64,000 nucleotides of DNA from Lysobacteraceae bacterium (GTDB lineage: Bacteria; Pseudomonadota; Gammaproteobacteria; Xanthomonadales; Ahniellaceae), in contig JAJTHZ010000067.1 in the NCBI GenBank assembly GCA_021299185.1, positions 1 through 64,000 of the forward strand, read 5' to 3'. A program made the position numbers and the translations under genes. Under the pieces are notes generated by a model. That model saw only the letters and a list, made by a program, of their open reading frames with translations, searched no databases and was not told the DNA's origin. Shown piece by piece: positions 57,653 to 57,838 of this stretch (its first letter is position 1; the number at the start of each line of letters is the position of its first letter).

Positions 57653-57766
57653 GTATACTTTCCATGATCCGAAGGGGCCGGCGGGACACGCGGCCGGGCC
57701 CGCAGGATGGGGCGCCCGGCGCCCGGAATCAAGGCGCGCCGCTCGACCGGTGCGGCCTCACCACCA

Positions 57767-57824
57767 CGGCGCGCCGACCACGGCGCCGACCAAGCCACGC
57801 GCCGCGCGAGCGGCGTTTTCTTTT
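57767..57824 (+). terminator. Intrinsic terminator with competing pairing segment in the ald leader
   Basis: The stem CGCCGC/GCGGCG (57800-57805, 57810-57815) with a GCGA tetraloop is followed directly by TTTTCTTTT (57816-57824). It stands 15 bp before the ald ATG, and no plus-strand gene ends nearby. The upstream segment CGGCGCG at 57767-57773 is complementary to 57798-57804 and would break the terminator stem if it paired. This is the layout of a transcriptional attenuator. It is inferred from sequence only; no known riboswitch was recognised. Confidence 0.55.
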
Positions 57825-57838
57825 GGGAGGGTGTATCC

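Follow-up and report, generated by a model that had tools for sequence, protein, structure and literature searches.

A conserved terminator-like hairpin in the leader of the alanine dehydrogenase gene ald in Lysobacterales

Comparison of ald leaders among relatives shows, to judge from the changes in their stems, that a hairpin and T run at the ald-proximal position are under selection in many lineages while the sequence itself varies, and a selected leader terminator preceding ald is a well-supported conclusion. We think it probable that this element is an intrinsic terminator in the 5' leader and that ald is made by read-through; the best reading of the data presented here is that a terminator in the leader gates ald or reduces its output. 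The window, that is, the whole 64,000-nucleotide stretch of DNA that was analysed, offers an example, from a large bacterial order, of a leader terminator that is apparently under selection before a gene of catabolism and has no RNA switch that we could recognise.

Results

The element in the window

The trxB-ald intergenic region occupies 57653-57838, with the ald ATG at 57839 (Table 1). The preliminary description of this DNA had placed a GCGA-capped stem and a nine-base T-rich run just before the ald ribosome-binding site, with no plus-strand gene upstream, and both statements hold: the upstream neighbour is the divergent trxB, on the minus strand, and a GC-rich hairpin followed by a U tract, the hallmark of an intrinsic (Rho-independent) terminator, is found at 57799-57824. 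The stem has seven pairs, the last of them G-U, and is followed directly by TTTTCTTTT, in which 8 of the 9 bases are T. Together they form the top-scoring terminator-like site in the 64 kb window (score 25.0). The hairpin by itself folds at -14.2 kcal/mol, a value equalled in 21 of 200 shuffles, and the fold alone is therefore unremarkable for DNA this GC-rich. Folding predictions have the hairpin form by default, with a median probability of 0.96 across leaders and 0.36 in the full leader of the window.

Table 1. Features of the trxB-ald region, in window coordinates
Feature	Position	Strand	Basis
trxB, thioredoxin reductase, divergent from ald	56708..57652	-	TIGR01292, 392.3 bits (cut-off 343.45)
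-10 box TATACT, probable ald promoter	57654..57659	+	sequence; kept in relatives
ald leader RNA (predicted)	57666..57838	+	inferred from the two promoters
trxB promoter -10, CATCCT (minus strand)	57704..57709	-	exact spacing in relatives
trxB promoter -35, TTGATT (minus strand)	57727..57732	-	exact spacing in relatives
Putative terminator hairpin GCGCCGC-GCGA-GCGGCGT	57799..57816	+	folding, terminator-site scan, conservation in relatives
T run TTTTCTTTT, expected transcript end	57816..57824	+	sequence, terminator-site scan
ald ribosome-binding site GGGAGGG	57825..57831	+	sequence
ald, alanine dehydrogenase, 355 aa	57839..58906	+	TIGR00518, 404.5 bits (cut-off 391.85)

Conservation in relatives

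We fetched 80 ald relatives, and a divergent trxB is present in 75 regions, the window included. A strict scan, with score thresholds chosen within this analysis and across relatives that are not independent of one another, found a terminator site in 49 of the 75 intergenic regions, where dinucleotide shuffles would give 5.8 and the reverse strand gives 13; in two of the 49 (L068 and L078) the site adjoins trxB and is not the ald leader element. The position of the element is likewise kept well above chance. Across 77 five-kb ald loci, 42 strong sites fall on the coding strand in the 100-base bin preceding ald, no other strong site lies on that strand in the 2 kb upstream of ald, and the next largest cluster, of seven, comes immediately after the gene. 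The terminator-bearing leaders contain 21 distinct stems in which most pairs have changed on both sides (157 distinct regions, 112 of them with ald), so that the element is conserved by structure and not by sequence, and with alifold three alignment groups (Lyso, LyB and LutB) yield the hairpin. The core pattern CGCCGC-N3-6-GCGGCG-T5 occurs in at most four copies per genome (118 genomes), and in the window's form it is a single copy in its own genome; the stem is therefore not a generic repeat or terminator sequence. The alignment of ald leaders that had been proposed as a check thus yields a stem that occurs in 21 versions with paired changes; far from lacking a conserved stem, the Lysobacterales relatives retain the terminator-like element of the ald leader in differing forms.

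Other structures near the element were also noted. Some leaders (L008, L012, L017-L019, L034, L093 and L036-L049) have a second GC-rich hairpin in the interval from the terminator to the ald ribosome-binding site, with a short T run in some of these. A candidate outer stem enclosing the T run (GGCCAG...CTGGCC in some Lysobacter, CCAAG...TTTGG in the window) was rejected, its pairing being at chance over 51 leaders (mean rank 0.49).

On the ald protein tree, the terminator appears on most Lysobacteraceae-side branches and is absent from the Rhodanobacteraceae side, with at least 12 state changes; the tree carries no inferred root, and the count omits L032 and L080, whose leaders duplicate others. 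L003 and L005, which are the nearest relatives of the window (their ald is 91% and 89% identical), are without it. Given these state changes and absences, the terminator is dispensable. Within one family the element accompanies ald, being present at 15 of 20 loci with the gene versus 6 of 47 without it, an association (Fisher p = 1.3e-6) that comes from an uneven sample of a single family and is uncorrected for kinship. Six ald-less genomes in two genera, L182, L195 and L212 in one (genus code g38) and L136, L203 and L211 in the other (g27), keep a plus-strand -10 box together with a strong terminator some 150 bases ahead of ftsK, and their hairpins are unlike.

Two predicted promoters in one intergenic region

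The stretch 57704-57732, conserved inside the ald leader, is by its sequence and spacing the sigma-70 promoter of the divergent trxB, read on the minus strand as TTGATT-N17-CATCCT. In 149 of 157 distinct intergenic regions the spacer is exactly 17, the fixed spacing typical of -35 and -10 boxes, while any other spacer from 12 to 22 is found in 1-7 regions each; CAAGCT, CATGCT and CATTCT occur as variants of the -10 box among relatives. On the ald strand the same stretch had the look of a compact RNA motif or aptamer shared by all leaders, A(C/G)(T/A)TGG...CAAGG, in which the distance from TGG to CAAG is exactly 19 bases in nearly all regions. Its spacing is invariant, its interior varies, and its minus-strand reading is TTG..., 17 bases, CANNCT; we therefore assign it to trxB, and the sole candidate for a conserved RNA motif falls away. 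In Luteimonas leaders (L041, L049, L056, L037, L036 and L048), the element GGAAC(A/G)ATC, often in the form of the dyad GAACAATCAGTTC, stands at a fixed distance of 20 bases from the trxB -35 CAAGG and may be an activator site for trxB.

The promoter of ald is probably the TATACT box, which has a poor -35 and sits at a distance of two bases from the start codon of trxB. Of the 112 distinct ald regions, 99 have a box of the form TATA[ACG]T or TATGAT next to trxB, as do 22 of the 45 regions without ald. The ald transcript would then start near 57666, and the first part of its leader RNA would be antisense to the trxB 5' UTR. The idea that ald has a promoter closer by, between the trxB promoter and the gene, was considered and set aside, candidate sites in that interval being no commoner than chance (2 seen, 3.1 expected); in the window, the stretch between 57756 and 57814 has no T at all, and thus no ordinary -10. 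An upstream ATG at 57707, whose frame is open into ald (57707-57838; 399 aa), is not kept in relatives and is probably a chance product of GC-rich DNA.

Discussion

A proposed read-through model for ald

Taken together, the data suggest the following pathway. RNA polymerase would begin at the TATACT box next to the start codon of trxB and, heading for ald, traverse the divergent trxB promoter. Some 15-25 bases short of the ald start codon, a fraction of the polymerases would halt on meeting the hairpin and its T run, and ald would be expressed by those that read through. We infer that the hairpin and T run act as a terminator and so lower ald output. Dependence of ald on read-through is probable, both because no promoter signal was found beyond TATACT and because 24 of 51 hairpins end no more than 30 bases from the ald ATG. 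Regulation of read-through is possible, though nothing in the sequence points to it. If it exists, a protein, coupling to translation or a general factor (NusA, NusG or Rho) is likelier than a riboswitch, since there is no sign of an alternative RNA fold, and the regulator would not be among the usual RNA kinds. Counting against the leader-terminator explanation are the absence of the element in L003, L005 and on the Rhodanobacteraceae side, its retention in two ald-less genera, and the lower hairpin probability (0.36) of the window's full leader.

Alternative readings

One alternative is a classical attenuator or riboswitch, in which an upstream segment competes for the 5' arm and the choice of fold is made by a ligand, a tRNA or a leader peptide. 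The preliminary description had pointed to a segment 30 bases upstream that can pair with the 5' arm, and the complementarity does exist, seven bases long (57768-57774, CGGCGCG, with 57798-57804, CGCGCCG). The pairing, however, is at chance: 40% of shuffles do as well, the window scores -17.0 kcal/mol against a shuffle mean of -17.0 (z = -0.02), and the mean z over 48 leaders is -0.20, so that no more antiterminator pairing with the 5' arm is seen than chance would give, in the window or in these leaders. Nor does an aptamer appear upstream of the terminator. Rfam gives no match at gathering level in the window's leader and nothing credible among relatives, and the group alignments, of which one had too little variation and another too much to be judged, hold no conserved RNA structure of note other than the terminator, save the second hairpin in one Lysobacter group. 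In the leaders inspected by eye, no conserved leader peptide or start codon is apparent. A ligand-sensing element is likewise unsupported, the conserved leader stretch being the trxB promoter, and we regard a switch of this type as very unlikely.

The other readings turn on the promoter and terminator themselves. Together they could bound a stand-alone small RNA gene, also raised in the preliminary description, with a transcript of about 79-445 nt that is perhaps antisense to the trxB 5' UTR, which the predicted transcript would overlap. The three g38 and three g27 genomes that keep both signals without ald lend this some weak help. Yet that same range of lengths shows how variable the transcript is, and the trxB promoter is the only strongly conserved sequence within it, so that neither a conserved body nor a seed of the kind expected of a trans-acting RNA was found; moreover, 41 of the 47 ald-less genomes lack the terminator, a pattern in keeping with relics of an ald leader that was lost. 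We consider a small RNA gene unlikely. A guard terminator, placed to block transcription that comes from the trxB side, stray or antisense, with no control over ald, would suit a leader that crosses a strong divergent promoter region, and it too could account for terminators retained before ftsK in some ald-less genomes. It requires, however, that ald be served by another, unrecognised promoter, for which the interval from T run to ald has neither room nor promoter signal in about half of cases and for which the T-free stretch of the window allows no ordinary -10; such a guard strikes us as decidedly improbable. The idea to which we give least credence is that the trxB-side promoter produces a short terminated RNA antisense to the trxB 5' UTR that acts on trxB, with only read-through yielding ald. 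Were it true, thioredoxin reductase and alanine catabolism would be coupled by regulated termination and no riboswitch, and the ald-less keepers of promoter and terminator would have retained the antisense half.

Relation to known systems

A terminator in the ald leader has its closest counterparts in the 5'-UTR premature-termination elements found by 3'-end mapping in E. coli (PMC7815308) and P. aeruginosa (PMC8297930). The likeness lies in an expected RNA 3' end before the coding sequence that lowers downstream expression, and the difference in the kind of evidence, RNA data for the E. coli and P. aeruginosa elements and sequence conservation alone for ald. The literature searched gave no ald case of 5'-UTR premature termination, nor did it offer anything about an alanine riboswitch, about ald in Lysobacter or about a Xanthomonas small RNA between trxB and ftsK. 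With attenuators and terminator-type riboswitches the ald leader shares a putative intrinsic terminator between the promoter and the ribosome-binding site of a metabolic gene; unlike them, it yielded no aptamer, no antiterminator, the antiterminator test giving a result at chance, and, in the leaders viewed by eye, no conserved leader peptide.

Divergent genes with overlapping 5' UTRs make up 'excludon'-like arrangements. The ald and trxB transcripts are likewise predicted to start within each other's leaders, with an overlap of some 30 bases in the window, but this overlap is short and is a predicted one without sign of mutual control. The trxB promoter within the ald leader carries a more general lesson, in that what looks like a strongly conserved 'RNA motif' can prove to be a promoter that serves the other strand.

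The wider neighbourhood offers several further observations. In the window, ald is placed between trxB and ftsK (57839-61271), the latter identified by a strong equivalog profile match that is yet under the curated cut-off. In one relative (L144), trxB leads instead to a gene for a Lrp/AsnC-type regulator; in E. coli lrp follows trxB, and ald may have taken over the place of lrp between trxB and ftsK. Distant ald loci without trxB (L057, L060, L073, L075, L077 and L081), some of them labelled Alcanivoracaceae, have a leader with another conserved stretch, TCGGATAAAAT ... TTAGGGGACAAA, before the ATG. Elsewhere in the window, a tmRNA gene lies on the minus strand at 9029-9379 (Rfam RF00023, 175.8 bits).
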